Assembly: GCF_003171515.1 (NCBI RefSeq)
Contig: NC_089391.1
Span: 3,596,001 to 3,660,000 of the forward strand
DNA from: Pyrenophora tritici-repentis
Lineage: Eukaryota; Ascomycota; Dothideomycetes; Pleosporales; Pleosporaceae
Length of the DNA: 64,000 nucleotides
Reading direction: 5' to 3'
The stretch's first letter is position 1. Each line of letters starts with the position of its first letter. The position numbers were made by a program, and so were the translations under genes. The notes beneath the pieces are model-generated. The model was not told the DNA's origin and searched no databases. It saw only the letters and a list, made by a program, of their open reading frames with translations. Positions 35,701-42,661 of this stretch are shown here, piece by piece.

Positions 35701-37016
35701 GCTAAGGAGGTTAGTCGCTAGACACGATGTCCAGCTGCAGTGCTGGTCTTGGCGACATGCACGCTGAAGCTTCAATCACCTTCTAAACACAAGTCGAGTC
35801 CAGCGCCGAGCCGTAATCAGCAAGCCACAGAACGTGTGCTTGATTGCAGTCAAGGCCAGAAATATACACGTCACCCGAGCACTCTCCACATTCCCATATA
35901 CGCCAGATGCGGCGTCGAGAAGCGCAGATGTTCCATGACCAGCATACGATTGAAGGTATCCCGAGACACGGAGAAATAAACCCGACAGCATACTGTTCCG
36001 TAGACGGTCAACTATAGCGAGAGAAGACCAAGAAGAAGACCAGTAACGGCGCAGCAGCTGCCAATGTCCAGATGGCATGGTTGACTTGCGCATACGAGCC
36101 CTGGTCCACAATTGCTAAGTATCACAAATCGTTACGAACGTGATCAGATACGGTACTGCGCGTCAGTGGTGGGCGCTCGGCAGCTCGGTTCTGGGTTCTG
36201 GGTTCTGGGTTTCTGGCTGGATTTTGTCCAGGACGGTGGGTGCTTTCTGTACGAGGCTTTCCCGCCAAGTCGTGGCGACAACGGCCCGCTAGTCTGATCG
36301 TTACTTGAATGCGGTCGGCAGCCTCGCTCGCCTTTTCTTGGCACATGCATTGCGAACAGGGCTCACCATACTTGGTGCGCGTAGCGTGAGTAATTACGTA
36401 GGAGAGCGAACCGACGATATTTGCTGGCACCAGCGATCGTGGTGGATCATCTGTGATGGCGTCCATGGCAAGTCGAGATCGAAATTGCGACTTCTCGAGT
36501 TTTGTCGGGAAGGCCTGGTCAGCTGTTATCACACAACATGGAATGAATCGTACATGGTGCTCGGTAGATTTCCCCCTTCGGACTGGGCTGGCTTTTTCGC
36601 TCGCCAACGCTCTGGCGCGGCAGTGCCGAATAATGCCGTGCGGGTTTAGCGTCAGCCATGACTTTGCGTAAACTCGTTTACGGACCCTGAGAGACGAGCG
36701 TGGTAGGTTCTGATGCATTCTTCGCGAACCATAGAACCGGGACAATAGCAGGGAACAAGCGCAAGGGCATCCTCAAGGAGCAGGTGTTCCGTGTTCCTGC
36801 TTTTCTCGTTCCTCCCAATCCTCCCGCAATCCCTCGCCGGCATGCGGCCAACGCCCCCGTCTGTACACCAACCTCCACGCTATGCACAGATAGCTACGCA
36901 CCTTTCTTACATGGGGGTTTTGACATGTAACTATGACGAATAATGGGACCGCAACAAGCGACTTGGTGTGGGTAGACGCTGCATGCTCTCGCTCTGGCGC
37001 CTTTGCCCCATGCTTG
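32775..37016. other. Gene-poor region without recognised genes
   Basis: 4.2 kb in which no frame longer than about 200 codons shows a known domain. A 7-bp microsatellite (ggttctg, about three units) lies at 36187-36215. The first few hundred bases are the promoter of the GTPase gene. I find no transposase or reverse-transcriptase remains. Confidence 0.55.
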
Positions 37017-37592
37017 ACCGTGCCATCATATGTATGTATGTATGTAATCCATTAGCGTCCTTTATCAGTCAGAGACTATGTAGGACGGTGGCAGATGCCA
37101 TTCTAGCTATTTTTATCTCTCCTTTGATGTTCGTTGGTTATGTTTGACTAATGTAGTTTAGGCATGTCCTAGCTATTACAGGGGAGGAGAGAAAGTAAAA
37201 CCCTATTATAGCTGCCTGTTTTTCCTTCTCTTCAACCTATCTCTTTTTGCAACGCTTTCCTCGTGTTCCTAAGTCTGAAAAAACCTCAAAGGGGAAAAAG
37301 CCATGGGATCTTGAACGAGGCGTAGGGTTGTAACAAGCTTAGCGTAGTGTTTGTAGTCGTAGCAGTGCGTGGCTCGGGTGTACTGCGGCTATAACCTGTC
37401 GCTTAGGTTTGCAGGGGTAGGTGAAAATTTGCGAGTTGGAGTAAGCCGTTCGATATTTTTTGGTAAAGCCACAAGTGGCGGTGAGAGGAGAAGGATTCGA
37501 ACCTTCGACCTCTACTACACTGCAAATTTGGAGTGCGGTAAAGGAATACCAGGCGCTTTACCACTGCGCCATCCCCCCACCGTGCCATCATA
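37017..37592 (-). mobile_element. tRNA-derived SINE-like element, copy 1 (with target-site duplication)
   Basis: The element body is 37031-37578, flanked by a perfect 14-bp duplication accgtgccatcata at 37017-37030 and 37579-37592. On the minus strand it begins with a tRNA-like head (37578 down to about 37480). The head starts GGGGGGA, followed by an A-box-like TGGCGCAGTGG and a B-box-like GGTTCGAATCC with a GAAGG/CCTTC T-stem, and the acceptor stem can pair with G-U wobbles. A tRNA-unrelated body of about 430 bp follows and ends in GGATTACATACATACATACA, a short-repeat tail. There is no open reading frame. The body is clearly related to the element at 40771-41324, with shared blocks near the tail (cagtcagagactatgtagg) and the head (agccgttcgat). 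Confidence 0.85.
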
Positions 37593-38029
37593 GCCGCGAC
37601 TCAAAATTGACAAGATAGACCGAATTCGTTGAATAAGAAATGAATTATGCGCTAACGCTTGATGAAACGCCTAGGAAGATGCCTCCAGTATCAAAAAAAC
37701 TCCCAGTGGACTCCAGGACGAAAATGTCTAAGGGTATATGCCGAACTGCACCATGTCTCGCCACGAACTTGTGTGTCCTCTCGAGCCTAGCTCACATCCT
37801 CAATAGCTCCTCTGCGTATAAGTGGAGCTTGATAGCATGACCACACATAGACATGCCTCAAATTGTGCGTGTTGATGTCGTCGTCCTTGGATAGAAGCGC
37901 TGTACCCGATAGTCCACGCTACGGCAATTTGCCATTGGCCAAGTCAATCCGGGTCCGTTCGCGCTTCGCGGCTATTCCCTACTGACTGGAAAGTCCTGGA
38001 CAGATTGAACGGTACAATGCAAACGTAAT
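37593..38029. other. Intergenic region downstream of the C2H2 gene
   Basis: 437 bp between SINE-like copy 1 and the stop of the C2H2 gene. No feature is recognised. Confidence 0.5.
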
Positions 38030-39629
38030 CTACCCGCCTGCTTCAGATGCTCGCCGGGGCTTGCATTTGTCATGTGCCATATGCCCATTCCTTGCAGTAG
38101 TGCGTGTGAATTCAGCACCGCATCGAGGACATGAGCTCTTTGATGCGGTTCCCGATTTTTCTCGTTGATGCCGTAAAAGGTTGCTGAAAGTAGAGAACTG
38201 GCGGCCGTTGCACCCGTGTTCCCAACATTGAGGCTTTGGTCGCGAGTTCAACACTCGCGGCATTACTGAATTGCCTTGCGTACTTGGTGATGATGAAAGT
38301 GCTGGAACAGGGCCATTAGGCGGCGGGGCACTCTGTTGGGTGTCATAAGATGCATAAGCGGAAGGCGTCGTAGCTGTTGGCGGGTACATTGTAGGCAAAG
38401 GGTGATAGTCGTTGACACCATAAGTAGTCGGAGGATAAAGCTGTGGTCTAGGTTGTGTTAGTGACCAAAGCTGCAGGTATTCTCAACGGACTCACGGCGG
38501 ATAGTTGTTGTTTCCTAATGGCTGATTTGGAAAGCTGTTGTTCTGTGGTGCTGAATACGTGTATGAATGGGAGGCGGAAGCCATAGGAGCGTTGTTTGCT
38601 CGAATAGAATCTGCGGACTGTTGTTGCTGGTACGGACTCCGTGGAAGCGATGGGTGTTGAGGCTGGTATGGTGGTAATGCAGCGTGCTGCTCGGGCCTGC
38701 TTTGCTGACTCTCATTTGGTGCCGGACTTGAAGAGTAGGATGAGCCGTAAGGACCTGAAGTTGATGATCTTGGCTCAGCGTAAGATTGCTGGGGCGGGTA
38801 GCCATTTGAATAAGAAGACTGTGGGTTGCCGTAATGGCTCATGCCGTACTGCGAGGGAGCCATCATGAATCCCAAGGTGCTGTTTGAGTCAGAAACAGCT
38901 CGTACAAGATCTCGGGAGACTTTACCTCATGTCTTGTAAGGCAAAGAAAGAGCCGTGTGGCTGTCCAGAATCGGCCGACAATTGGACGTCAAATTCGTGG
39001 CTACCAGATGCGGAAGTTAAGGGAGACGCAAGAAGTCCCAGACTTTCAATGTGCTGACTTTGCTGAGTGTGCGACGGGTAATGTCCAGTAATAGCACCGA
39101 GTCCCGTGTCTGAGCCTTGGGGGGAGTCGTGGGACAAGAAGTCTAGTGTTTGCACAGGAAGGAGACTGTGAGATGGGTCCTGTTCGACACTTATCGCAAG
39201 AGAGTTGTTGCAAGGTGGGTTGCTGTCAAGAGTGTGTGAAGTATTCCAGGCTAGCGAAGGTGGGCGCGAATTGGGCGACTGATAATCAATGGGATTTAGA
39301 CTCCGCAACAATCAATTCAATCCGGTCACTCTCCTAGACCCACTTACCTATCTAGGTAGGGCTTAAACTCCTATAGGTAACTACTAGGCTTAAAGCGGTA
39401 ATCAATCAATCCAATCTGAACCTTCTAGGACCCACTTAATTGATTGTTGCGGACTGTGAATGGGATTGTGGCGGGGCGTTGGCAAGGTTGCGGCACGGCG
39501 CGGGCGAGCACTTCTTATTTGTGGAATTTCTGATGGCTGAATAGAGAGGTGCTGGTCGGCAGAGTCCCTGGGTCTTCGTGAGATGGCAGTCGTCTTGGGA
39601 TGATGGGGTTGCGTAGACCGAAGGGTCAT
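38030..39629 (-). CDS. C2H2 zinc-finger protein, exon 1 interrupted by a MITE
   Basis: Exons 38879-38496 and 38447-38030 follow an N-terminal exon ending at 38926; introns 38880-38925 and 38448-38495 have GT-AG ends. The C-terminus holds two zinc fingers: CWEHGCNGRQFSTFSNLLRH and CPRCGAEFTRTTARNGHMAH. The middle is rich in Gln, Ser, Tyr and Pro, as in fungal transcription factors. The N-terminal frame begins at ATG 39629 (MTLRSTQP) and is split by a 162-bp MITE at 39297-39458. The MITE's 9-bp duplication encodes Asn-Pro-Ile in the same frame on both sides. If a MITE-internal intron (39301-39435) is spliced, all exons join in frame to 456 residues; otherwise the protein is cut short. It is a likely DNA-binding regulator; the target is unknown. 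Confidence 0.65.
39288..39467. mobile_element. 162-bp MITE with 9-bp target-site duplication
   Basis: The element is 39297-39458, flanked by aatgggatt at 39288-39296 and 39459-39467. Its ends carry a perfect 16-bp inverted repeat, tccgcaacaatcaatt (39302-39317) against aattgattgttgcgga (39437-39452); the outer 5 bases match only in part. An internal direct repeat (cctagacccactt near 39333 and ctaggacccactt near 39425) is also present. A 9-bp duplication fits Mutator-like elements. It has no coding capacity. Confidence 0.8.
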
Positions 39630-40755
39630 GATCAACAACGGAAAGGCAGCATTTGATGCAGACAGTACCAATGGGGAGACGTACGTTTCTGTTCCTGATT
39701 AAGGCCCACCGGGTGGGATTATGCCAGCCTTAAAGAAAGTTGACTATGAGACAGTACTGCTTTTCTAAGCTTGACGTTTGGTAGTGCCCCAGTGGTCTGC
39801 GCCTTACATGGGGGACACCAGGCTTTACAGAAACAAGAGCATTTGAGTTTCATGATCCAACAGCAGCAGAGCGCTTTTCCCGGCTTTGCGGCTGGGGACT
39901 GGTTGAAGCCTCGAAGGATTCACATCCTGGTATTGGACCGTTGACTAGCCACAGAACGTGCACCCACGATGGGTGCCTGGACCGGGGGCACCCGCGCATC
40001 ACGAATTGCGCGATTCTCTTTTGCTGGATGAGAACTAGCATGTTCGTTGCACTACTGTACATACAATCGCATGGTGGGGCTCGATGCGTGCGCGAACGTT
40101 GACCGTCTTCCTCTCTGCGGTGGGTTTCATCAGGCTACATGCGAGCGCTAGCTGGTGATTGATCCCATGTCCGGATAGGGTAGTGACGAAGCCACATGGC
40201 CGCACGAGAGTTGATGAGTGCCCGAATGCTATTGTCCCCCAAGGACAAGGTTGGTGGCGCTTGCGGTATCGCGCCTGGGACCGAGAAGCTATCCCACGTT
40301 GAGTTTGGCGTTTTGAGGCGGCCTGTCAGACTTTCGCTGCGAATACCCCGGCGGGCCGTAACTTTACATGATACAGTAGAGAGGATAAGGCCGTCTTTGC
40401 GTAAGACGCAGTCGGAAAAGGTTTGGCGTGTACCCAGCCAACATCATCTAGAAGCCTTGCTGTCCGGCCCTGGGCTCACGGGCACCGCCACGAGATCGCT
40501 TGAGACTGTCACGTTCATGACCCCCAATTCGCGTGTCGTGCTCTGCCGATGCACAGTTCGCCCCGTGGTTCTATATTTGTCCTCGCTACAGTATCGTCCG
40601 AGCACCTATATGCGAATGCGGCCCGTTCTCTTTCGGAAACGCTTCTGACTCCCGCACTGTCGATGTTGTGAATACGGCGCGCCTTCGAGGATAAACCTTC
40701 TTGACCCGGAGAAAACCAGCACAATGACATTCGGCTCCGGGCATGGTTGTATGCT
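39630..40755. other. Intergenic region
   Basis: About 1.1 kb upstream of the C2H2 gene. No supported gene; frames such as 40196-40648 show no domain. Confidence 0.5.
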
Positions 40756-41339
40756 GACTGTATGCAGTAGTAGTAGTAGTAGTAGTATCCATTAACGTCC
40801 TTTTTCAGTCAGAGACTATGTAGGACGGTGGCCTAGGGCCGTTTGACTAGTTTTTTCCCTCTATACCCGTAGGATTTCGTTTCTTTGGTCGAGTTTGACT
40901 ATGGGGGTTTGGGTTTTTTGCTTCTATACAGGAAAGAGAGAGAGACCTTGTAATAGACACCCGTTTATCTCCACCTTTGTGACCAATCCCTTTGCTATAA
41001 TAACCCCGTGCTCCTAAGACTGAAAAAAACCTCGTAGGGGAAAAAGTCATGGGACCTTGAACGTTTGTTGTATATAGCGGCAGTTGCGGCATATTTTCGT
41101 CTCGGCGGTACTTTGTGGCTCGGTTGTACGGCGGCGGCTAGCGTTAAGCGTGCGGGGTATTGGTGAAAAACTTTCCAGGTTTCGAAAGGAGCCGTTCGAT
41201 GTTTTTTGGTAAAGCTAGAATAATAGAATTATTATAGCGGTGAGGGGAGAAGGATTCGAACCTTCAACCTCTGCGAGCAAGCTAGCAGAAGCAACCAGGC
41301 GCACTACCACTGCGCCATCCCCCCGACTGTATGCAGTAG
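40756..41339 (-). mobile_element. tRNA-derived SINE-like element, copy 2 (with target-site duplication)
   Basis: The body is 40771-41324, flanked by a perfect 15-bp duplication gactgtatgcagtag at 40756-40770 and 41325-41339. On the minus strand the tRNA-like head runs from 41324 to about 41239: GGGGGGA, A-box TGGCGCAGTGG, then GAAGG-TTCGAAT-CCTTC as T-arm and B-box. The central anticodon region is about 13 bases shorter than in copy 1 and unrelated to it. The body matches copy 1 in order and spacing, including a run of seven T at 41029-41023 (six in copy 1). The tail is (TAC)n, and on the plus strand it continues the TAG that ends the target duplication. No coding capacity. Confidence 0.87.
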
Positions 41340-42661
41340 AGACCGTGCGAACTGGAAGGAATGGATGTGAACACGTGTCGGAGAAGAATGCCGCACTTTC
41401 ACCATGGAGACATCCGCCCCACTCCGAGATAGGTCTGACCTTGCAAACCCCGTAGATACCGAAGTTCGGGTCCGTAAGATTAATTTCGTCGCGGCCTTGG
41501 TGCAAAGACATTCGCAGCGATGCTCAGGCTTCTGGATGTCTAGTAGGTGCAGGTGCGATGAAGGCCTGAACGCCAAGAACACTCAACCACTGGCGCACGT
41601 CCGACTCGCAACTTCACTCATGAAAACGCTCACCACATCTGCCAAACACCGACGCTAACAGTAGCCATCGCGAACCTCACATAAGCCGGAAATTGCAACG
41701 AGTCAGTTTTGCTTGGATCAACACGACCGAGTCAACTTATGCCGACCGCTCACGTCCACATCACGAGGTCACTATGTGAAACCATCTAAGCTTACAAGCT
41801 GCGGCGTTGTATCGCCGTGACAGTCGACGATCATGCCGACTTCGCCGCTTAGTAGAGACTATCACCGGCATCGGGACAGTCGCCTCGGCATGAATCTGGC
41901 TTCAACGTATTACAACGGCCACCCAAGGCATAAGGCCTAAGGCCTCCAGATACCAAGGCGCAGCCTAGCAGACGGCAACTTTTCATGTAAAACTTCTAAT
42001 CGCTGGTACGCCTAGAATCCTACAAGAGACTAGACGTTGGTAGCATGGTATACCCCTCTATCTTAGGCGACCCAGATAGCCACGTGCGACGGAACATGTA
42101 GAGATACATCTACCTAGGGAGGAAAAGGTGAAGTGCAGCGATCAATACACTCACATAACCTACAAGGACGTCTAGATATTCCAGTCCGGGCTCTACAAAA
42201 TGTAAAAATGGTAGCGGACAATAAGCCTCATTTGTGGAAAGACTATGCGCCAAGCGAGGTACTATCTGCCGTCGTTACACCAAAAGATGCCTGCAAGGCG
42301 GGGCGGGTACAAAGCCCCATGCGGAGTTCGAGGATAATTCGTGCATTGCAGCACATTAGGGTCGAACTACGTCTCCTCTTACCGCCTACCCGCGATCTTG
42401 CTGCAGATGTTACTTTCGGCACGGGATTGTATTGTGAAAATCTGCCGCTGCGGCATTGACGTCACTTCTGTTAACTTCCATCGCAGATGTACGAGGGAAT
42501 CTGTGGATTACTGATCTACCGTTTGTACCTTCCTCCTATATCACTAGTCTGTTCTTTCTCCGCTAACTAGCATATCTTTCGGTGGGGTTTCGCCTTGGCA
42601 TGGAGGGATACCCACAACGCCATAGTCTTTGATTCTCTTGGAAATCAAATCACACTCAAAG
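41340..42661. other. Intergenic region
   Basis: About 1.3 kb with no supported gene, between SINE-like copy 2 and the esterase pseudogene. A short aaggcctaaggcct palindromic stretch lies near 41930-41945. Confidence 0.5.

Follow-up and report, generated by a model that had tools for sequence, protein, structure and literature searches.

Pairs of a short interspersed element (SINE) and a long interspersed element (LINE) are already known in fungi. In Magnaporthe, the 472-bp Mg-SINE is derived from a transfer RNA (tRNA) and has a 3′ end that mimics that of the resident LINE MGL/MGR583 (PMC2104539, PMC5063351, PMC3747384), and fungal SINE-LINE 3′ mimicry was published with this pair (PMC2104539). 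In Aspergillus, AfuSINE2-1a with I-1_AF / I-4_AO has a tRNA head, a 14-base terminal repeat in its tabulated letters and a 3′ end similar to LINEs of the Tad/I type (PMC5063351). SINE2-1_BG with Tad1-24_BG in Blumeria, likened here by description, is again a fungal tRNA-SINE accompanied by a Tad1 LINE (PMC3747384), and superfamily-I LINEs with endonuclease, reverse transcriptase (RT), RNase H and AAT tail repeats are described from Cochliobolus heterostrophus (PMC4112212). Here we examine two elements of this kind, SINE A and SINE B, in Pyrenophora tritici-repentis. They lie in a stretch of 64,000 nucleotides, called the window below, at positions 3,596,001 to 3,660,000 of contig NC_089391.1 (our C2; assembly GCF_003171515.1).

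Like Mg-SINE, A and B have a tRNA-like head and a 3′ end resembling that of a resident LINE. Unlike Mg-SINE, which was compared by its description, there are here two diverged families with one LINE-type tail and a common central block. AfuSINE2-1a has an (ACT)n tail as family A does; it differs in its length (370 bp as tabulated) and its four copies (PMC5063351). We reject homology to AfuSINE2-1a, since its BLAST comparison with A and B returns only the ACT repeat and stretches of 10–20 bases, two of them in the head. The original prediction, made from the letters of the window alone, considered about 550 bp long for a SINE. For a fungal SINE it is not: elements of 472–900 bp are in print, the Aspergillus ones of the same paper being shorter (PMC5063351).

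We judge A and B to form a family that is new, as far as our searches reach, but of a kind already known. The whole word “SINE” is absent from the main text (supplements lie outside this search) of three genome papers on P. tritici-repentis (PMC9594970, PMC5913888, PMC7507622). In the available main text on C. heterostrophus, “SINEs” stands twice, in definitions only, and “SINE” is absent (PMC4112212). Among the papers listed for P. tritici-repentis or Pyrenophora together with SINEs or transposable elements, none has a title on such elements. The family may already be contained, without a name of its own, in Repbase or in the set of 540 de novo repeat families reported with the M4 genome (PMC5913888).

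Two tRNA-headed elements with target-site duplications

Both elements are full length and lie on the minus strand: B at 37031..37578 (548 bp; head at 37578, tail end at 37031) and A at 40771..41324 (554 bp; head at 41324, tail end at 40771). Their heads match the Rfam tRNA model RF00005, for which the gathering score is 29, with 46.1 bits in A (41241..41324; ARAGORN, 41239-41324) and 40.4 bits in B (37482..37578), and an A box TGGCGCAGTGG and a B box GGTTCGAATCC are common to both. Each element is bounded by a perfect target-site duplication (TSD). That of B has 14 bp (ACCGTGCCATCATA; tail side 37017..37030, head side 37579..37592) and that of A has 15 bp (GACTGTATGCAGTAG; tail side 40756..40770, head side 41325..41339). 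The tails are (TAC)n in A and (TACA)n with some CA in B, where the (TACA)n tail takes up 16 bp (37031..37046, minus strand). A 13-base piece of the tail, at one mismatch or fewer, occurs at two places in the window, compared with 0.04 expected. The original prediction had proposed two elements of these lengths on one strand, each with a tRNA-like head, A and B boxes and a perfect duplication, and all of this is present in the sequence. It had also called the body “unrelated”, which does not hold between the two elements: the bodies of A and B are related to each other, the alignment having 63.5% identity over 529 ungapped columns. The longest stop-to-stop frame in the SINEs has 96 codons.

We are highly confident that A and B, the latter with a subgroup B′, are families of tRNA-headed SINEs with LINE-type insertion. 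This confidence covers their identity as SINEs and the mode of insertion; we are less sure of the transcription step. As to the origin of their parts, ARAGORN reads the head of A as Arg(TCT) and that of B as Gly(ACC) with an intron, and we claim no parent tRNA. A body derived from a known structured RNA was also considered and dropped, as only tRNA came near an Rfam gathering score in 36900-41500.

Genome copies and their insertion sites

The genome searched is the 40.9-Mb assembly of P. tritici-repentis, a wheat pathogen, in 41 contigs; we take it to be that of M4. BLAST with SINE A and SINE B scored 40 candidates each, and copy numbers are therefore taken from pattern counts. A central-block pattern, searched with up to three mismatches, has 48 exact places, 24 of A type and 24 of B type, spread over nine contigs. 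One extra place has three mismatches and is taken as chance because the reversed pattern, used as a control, gave two places. By pattern search there are 44 exact heads (22 A-type and 22 B-type), and 19 of the 22 A-type heads but none of the 22 B-type heads are among the tRNA matches listed genome-wide. SINE-type tails account for 50 (48 exact, two with one mismatch) of 112 tail places counted; among the remaining 62, the 50 listed are of LINE type. Given 44 exact heads and 50 SINE-type tails, most copies seem to be full length.

As a BLAST query, A finds at least 21 full-length or near-full-length copies at 99–100% identity, at least 14 of them 554-bp matches at 100% (window copy included) and seven more at 99–100%, and it finds B as a 67% relative. 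B finds at least 11 copies at 99–100%, comprising at least nine full-length 548-bp matches at 100% (window copy included) and two more at 99%, as well as the B′ group at 95–96%. Divergence and flanks were compared for 41 copies (21 A, 20 B/B′). Among the A copies, 15 of 21 are identical over 538 bp, five have a single inserted base and L021 has four differing positions. Among the B/B′ copies, 11 of 20 are identical over 532 bp; eight form the B′ group, with 20–21 differences from those 11, and L052 has 24. This near-identity points to recent activity, and to judge from the sequences the recent multiplication seems to have involved three lineages (A, B and B′). Substitutions are almost absent from the near-identical copies, and with them any signature of repeat-induced point mutation (RIP), which agrees with the low RIP reported for the M4 genome of P. 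tritici-repentis (PMC5913888).

Insertion was examined at 48 loci (L001–L025 and L031–L053; the short SINE fragments L026 and L054–L056 are outside this set). Six loci without a full head are excluded from the TSD count, which thus covers the 41 copies above and L046. A duplication was counted if it was exact, had 10 bp or more and stood no further than 8 nt from the head. Exact TSDs of 12–17 bp are present in 40 of these 42 full-headed copies, with a mode of 14 (12 bp, three copies; 13 bp, six; 14 bp, 17; 15 bp, 10; 16 bp, three; 17 bp, one), whereas none of 1000 random pairings of left and right flanks from different copies gives one. The TSD directly abuts the head in 35 of the 40 copies, and 1, 5 or 7 extra bases stand between them in the other five. 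The duplications had been described in advance as of variable length; their lengths do differ, but they vary little, 27 of the 40 being 14 or 15 bp. TSDs start with CTA in 12 of 19 A copies and with TA in 11 of 21 B copies. Because these starts resemble the tail repeats, it is ambiguous where the tail ends and the TSD begins; the match also suggests that the tail repeats may anneal to the target.

Could the two elements be products of a segmental duplication, or could the 550-bp stretch be contained in a larger autonomous transposon? Several SINE copies do lie inside other repeats, and three neighbour pairs less than 4 kb apart occur among the 48 copies where 0.22 are expected (p-value 0.0016), a clustering that helps explain why two stand in one window. 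However, at a threshold of E ≤ 1e-5 no pair among the 41 copies has similar flanks, whether 5′ (300 bp) or 3′ (240 bp). At two clear paralogous empty sites (L004 versus L048 and L047 versus L066) the target runs on without a break and the duplicated bases stand only once; here the SINE copies sit inside repeats that are present elsewhere without a SINE. At a third paralogous site (L043 versus L102) the unbroken target can be followed on the right and over part of the left. The exact central pattern occurs only with A-type or B-type letters, all 48 times, and no SINE segment save the 3′ end matches the LINE described below significantly. Own TSDs, unrelated flanks, empty sites and the central pattern lead us to reject both readings, against which the short longest frame also speaks; their probability is negligible. 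The insertions are thus independent, as the original prediction had it, and the two checks that it proposed, for flanks common to the genome copies and for a longer transposon containing the body, both come out on its side.

We also note some further observations on the copies. The tail repeat unit differs between them, being CA-rich in some B/B′ copies and AAC in the A copy L021 and the fragment L026 (variation is seen in L040, L041, L047, L050, L021 and L026), a hint that tails may be remade at insertion. A bacterial and archaeal genome collection has no matches to the SINEs, as expected for a fungal element. Contig C41 (about 180 kb or more) has many tRNA matches, partly in mirrored order, and is probably the mitochondrial genome; a mitochondrial DNA of 183 kb is reported for P. 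tritici-repentis (PMC5913888).

A resident LINE with a similar 3′ end

The 21-mer of the SINE 3′ end is found at 281 places with three or fewer mismatches, and its reversed control at none. Among the 100 of the 281 places that are listed, all exact, 40 have a SINE match no more than 700 bp away; the other 60 (in L061–L120) are all LINE 3′ ends or fragments, as judged by eye. The LINE 3′ ends form two main subfamilies, T1 with GGCCAAAGTCC and T2 with GGCCCAGTCC. An (ATA)n tail is present on nearly all of the 60; two are interrupted before the tail (L079, L119) and three have hardly any (L093, L098, L104). Thirteen LINE-type RT matches spanning about 750 bp were chosen from at least 150 RVT_1 matches. 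Seven of them are followed on their own strand by the tail motif, no more than 4 kb downstream, a count for which only 100 of the 281 places were usable, and a separate tail search adds an eighth RT match (C10:39075).

The second open reading frame (ORF2) of this LINE, 1311 codons long, is open in at least four RT matches. Its product (P0001) contains an APE-type endonuclease (PF14529), an RT (PF00078) and an RNase H (PF00075), all over cut-offs, a set of domains that fits a LINE of superfamily I or Tad-like type. We regard this LINE as the likely partner of the SINEs. The LINE is about 6.1 kb long as pieced together from the start of L146 and the end of L062. In L062 (C6:29700-36700, minus strand) there is also an upstream reading frame, in two frames of 266 and 239 codons, neither of which has a Pfam match. 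The LINE protein has 100% identity, over 99% of its length, to P. tritici-repentis proteins labelled PtrM4. Among the matches listed for the ORF2 protein, the nearest fungi named beside P. tritici-repentis are Bipolaris maydis, which we take to be the same fungus as Cochliobolus heterostrophus, and Alternaria alternata. Five B. maydis proteins have 64–67% identity to ORF2 over 61–97% of it, and the others are lower.

By BLAST, element positions 468–551 of A (40774..40857, minus strand) match the LINE 3′ end with 81.4% identity over 86 columns (E = 5.6e-17), and positions 471–534 of B (37045..37108, minus strand) with 84.6% over 65 columns (E = 8e-15). The similarity is confined to the 3′ end, the next best match having an E-value of 0.025, and a body derived from the LINE is therefore rejected. 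A is slightly nearer T1 (50/56 identities) than T2 (49/56), a margin of one base, and B is nearer T1 (48/56) than T2 (45/55). The original prediction had proposed to look for a LINE whose 3′ end matches the tail of the elements; such a LINE has been found, with the qualification that the tail repeats differ (TAC/TACA versus ATA).

The 3′ 64–68 nt of LINE T1, LINE T2, A and B are all predicted to fold into a small GGCC/GGC hairpin and a larger two-part hairpin, so that each LINE-like segment given above includes both predicted hairpins, and that of A the start of the tail as well. The z-scores of the folds are −2.92 (LINE T1), −2.44 (LINE T2), −2.52 (SINE A) and −2.60 (SINE B). In an alignment of eight sequences of our own choice, 99.2% of cells pair, compared with 13.6–44.4% in slid controls. 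One pair differs in both of its bases, being A-U in the LINEs and C-G in the SINEs. As this is a single event, the covariation is weak, and the main fact is the extreme conservation. A covariation in the first hairpin is not counted, since the fold of B shifts the 4-bp stem by one pair and leaves no clean compensatory change. In zebrafish LINEs it is established that ORF2 recognises a stem-loop (PMC4176376), and we infer that such recognition may operate in this fungal pair as well.

Does the LINE itself leave duplications like those of the SINEs? A TSD of 13 bp is present in two of six copies tested, L061, with its 5′ end cut short, and the longer copy L146. L062 has a 22-bp match inside a repetitive stretch, which is ambiguous as a TSD; L147 yields no more than a 10-base match at a distance, and nothing is found in L145 or L148, the 5′ stretches retrieved perhaps lacking the true start.

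It is possible, though we think it improbable, that the same SINEs are moved by a LINE other than the T1/T2 family and that the common 3′ end is ancestral and no longer functional. Such a history would accommodate the different tails, as the LINE copies read end in ATA/AAT repeats, and the 15–19% of aligned columns at which the SINE and LINE 3′ ends differ; with 100 of the 281 tail places listed, a TAC-tailed LINE could have been missed. What tells against it is that the predicted hairpins are kept and that the 21-mer is exact at no fewer than 100 of the 281 places, in LINEs and SINEs alike. The tail is absent from the 3.5–3.7 kb read of two further RT families sampled (L149, L150), and the two clear LINE TSDs are close to the SINE mode of 14.

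Other repeats stand beside these elements. LINE tails adjoin sequences that resemble terminal inverted repeats and start about TTGTTGG or TTGTTGAGAAG (L066, L077, L079, L080, L104, L119), as if a DNA transposon often inserted in or beside the LINE AAT tail. In the window itself, an element with terminal inverted repeats (about CTCCGCAACAATCAATT), resembling a miniature inverted-repeat transposable element, lies at 39297-39459; 157–169 bp of it recur at 97.6–100% identity in or beside L001, L043, L061 and L145.

Conserved blocks and the transcription of the elements

The identity between A and B is clumped: 96 windows of 25 columns reach 88%, whereas 5000 permutations give 2.8 such windows on average and 50 at most. 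By eye, the conserved blocks are the head, the T arm, positions 108–130, about 188–207, the central block (258–320) and the tail. The central block (41005..41067 in A and 37262..37321 in B, both minus strand) has a run of five T at 280 and a run of seven T (A) or six T (B) at 296, the offsets in B being those of A. To gauge native terminators of RNA polymerase III (Pol III), we sampled 24 candidate tRNA loci, of which ARAGORN finds a gene in 21 and none in three. In the last 22 nt of the retrieved stretch, 15 of the 21 have T5 or longer, one has T4 and five have none. Since the internal runs are as long as these, Pol III should stop mid-element near position 300, before the LINE-like tail. Full-length RNA would then come either from rare read-through, or from another polymerase, or from transcription in which termination is prevented. 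AfuSINE2-1a, which is listed as active, has an internal T6 run (PMC5063351), and by analogy such a run may not be unique to A and B.

A related reading, which is tentative and does not exclude the one we favour, is that A and B are not simple Pol III SINEs: the tRNA head would be a relic or a processing signal, and the template an RNA made by RNA polymerase II (Pol II) or by read-through. It would fit the T6 run, exact in all 48 central-block places (the run belongs to the search pattern, with three or fewer mismatches allowed), and the T5 at position 280 of both reference copies, both as long as native terminators. Yet both families have kept their A and B boxes intact though 36.5% of ungapped columns differ, and 35 of 40 copies start exactly at the tRNA-like 5′ end, right behind the TSD. 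AfuSINE2-1a, which has its internal T6 run and is listed as active, likewise speaks against this reading (PMC5063351).

More speculative still, and rather unlikely in our view, is that a conserved central domain defines a superfamily of fungal SINEs to which both A and B belong; the T5-N11-T6/7 block in this domain would be functional, either in stopping or regulating Pol III or as an RNA element for mobility. If it stops Pol III, only anti-terminated or Pol II-made RNA would be the template for retrotransposition. The CORE, V and Deu domains of animal SINEs are conserved central domains and offer a comparable case.

If A and B are SINEs inserted by the LINE machinery, as we favour, the following course can be proposed. 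The two would go back to one ancestor. RNA started at the tRNA-like promoter would reach the 3′ end, and the ORF2 protein of the LINE would recognise the two-hairpin tail. The LINE endonuclease would make cuts staggered by about 14 bp, the microsatellite tail would anneal to the nicked target, and target-primed reverse transcription would copy the RNA into place. The SINEs appear to borrow the copying machinery of the LINE by mimicking its RNA tail.

Several points weigh against this account. Two of the 42 SINE copies (L001, L020) are without an exact TSD, and four of the six LINE copies have no clear one. The ARAGORN readings of the SINE heads identified no parent tRNA. The SINE tails, (TAC)n and (TACA)n, are not the (ATA)n of the LINE. 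The covariation amounts to one base pair, its score being reached by 11 of 500 shuffles and its pair count by 419 of 500. The central runs (T5, T6-7) have the length of native tRNA terminators, and transcription and transposition are steps proposed from the sequence.

What makes this fungal SINE-LINE pair unusually clean is the combination of near-identical copies, precise TSDs, empty sites and a candidate donor LINE with uninterrupted ORF2 frames, all in a genome for which little RIP has been reported (PMC5913888). With such a pair one could test how a fungal LINE recognises a tail, and the SINE copies could be used as markers of insertion when isolates are compared. How fungal SINE RNA is made is a further question that can be tested, and it is the conserved T runs inside the elements that raise it.

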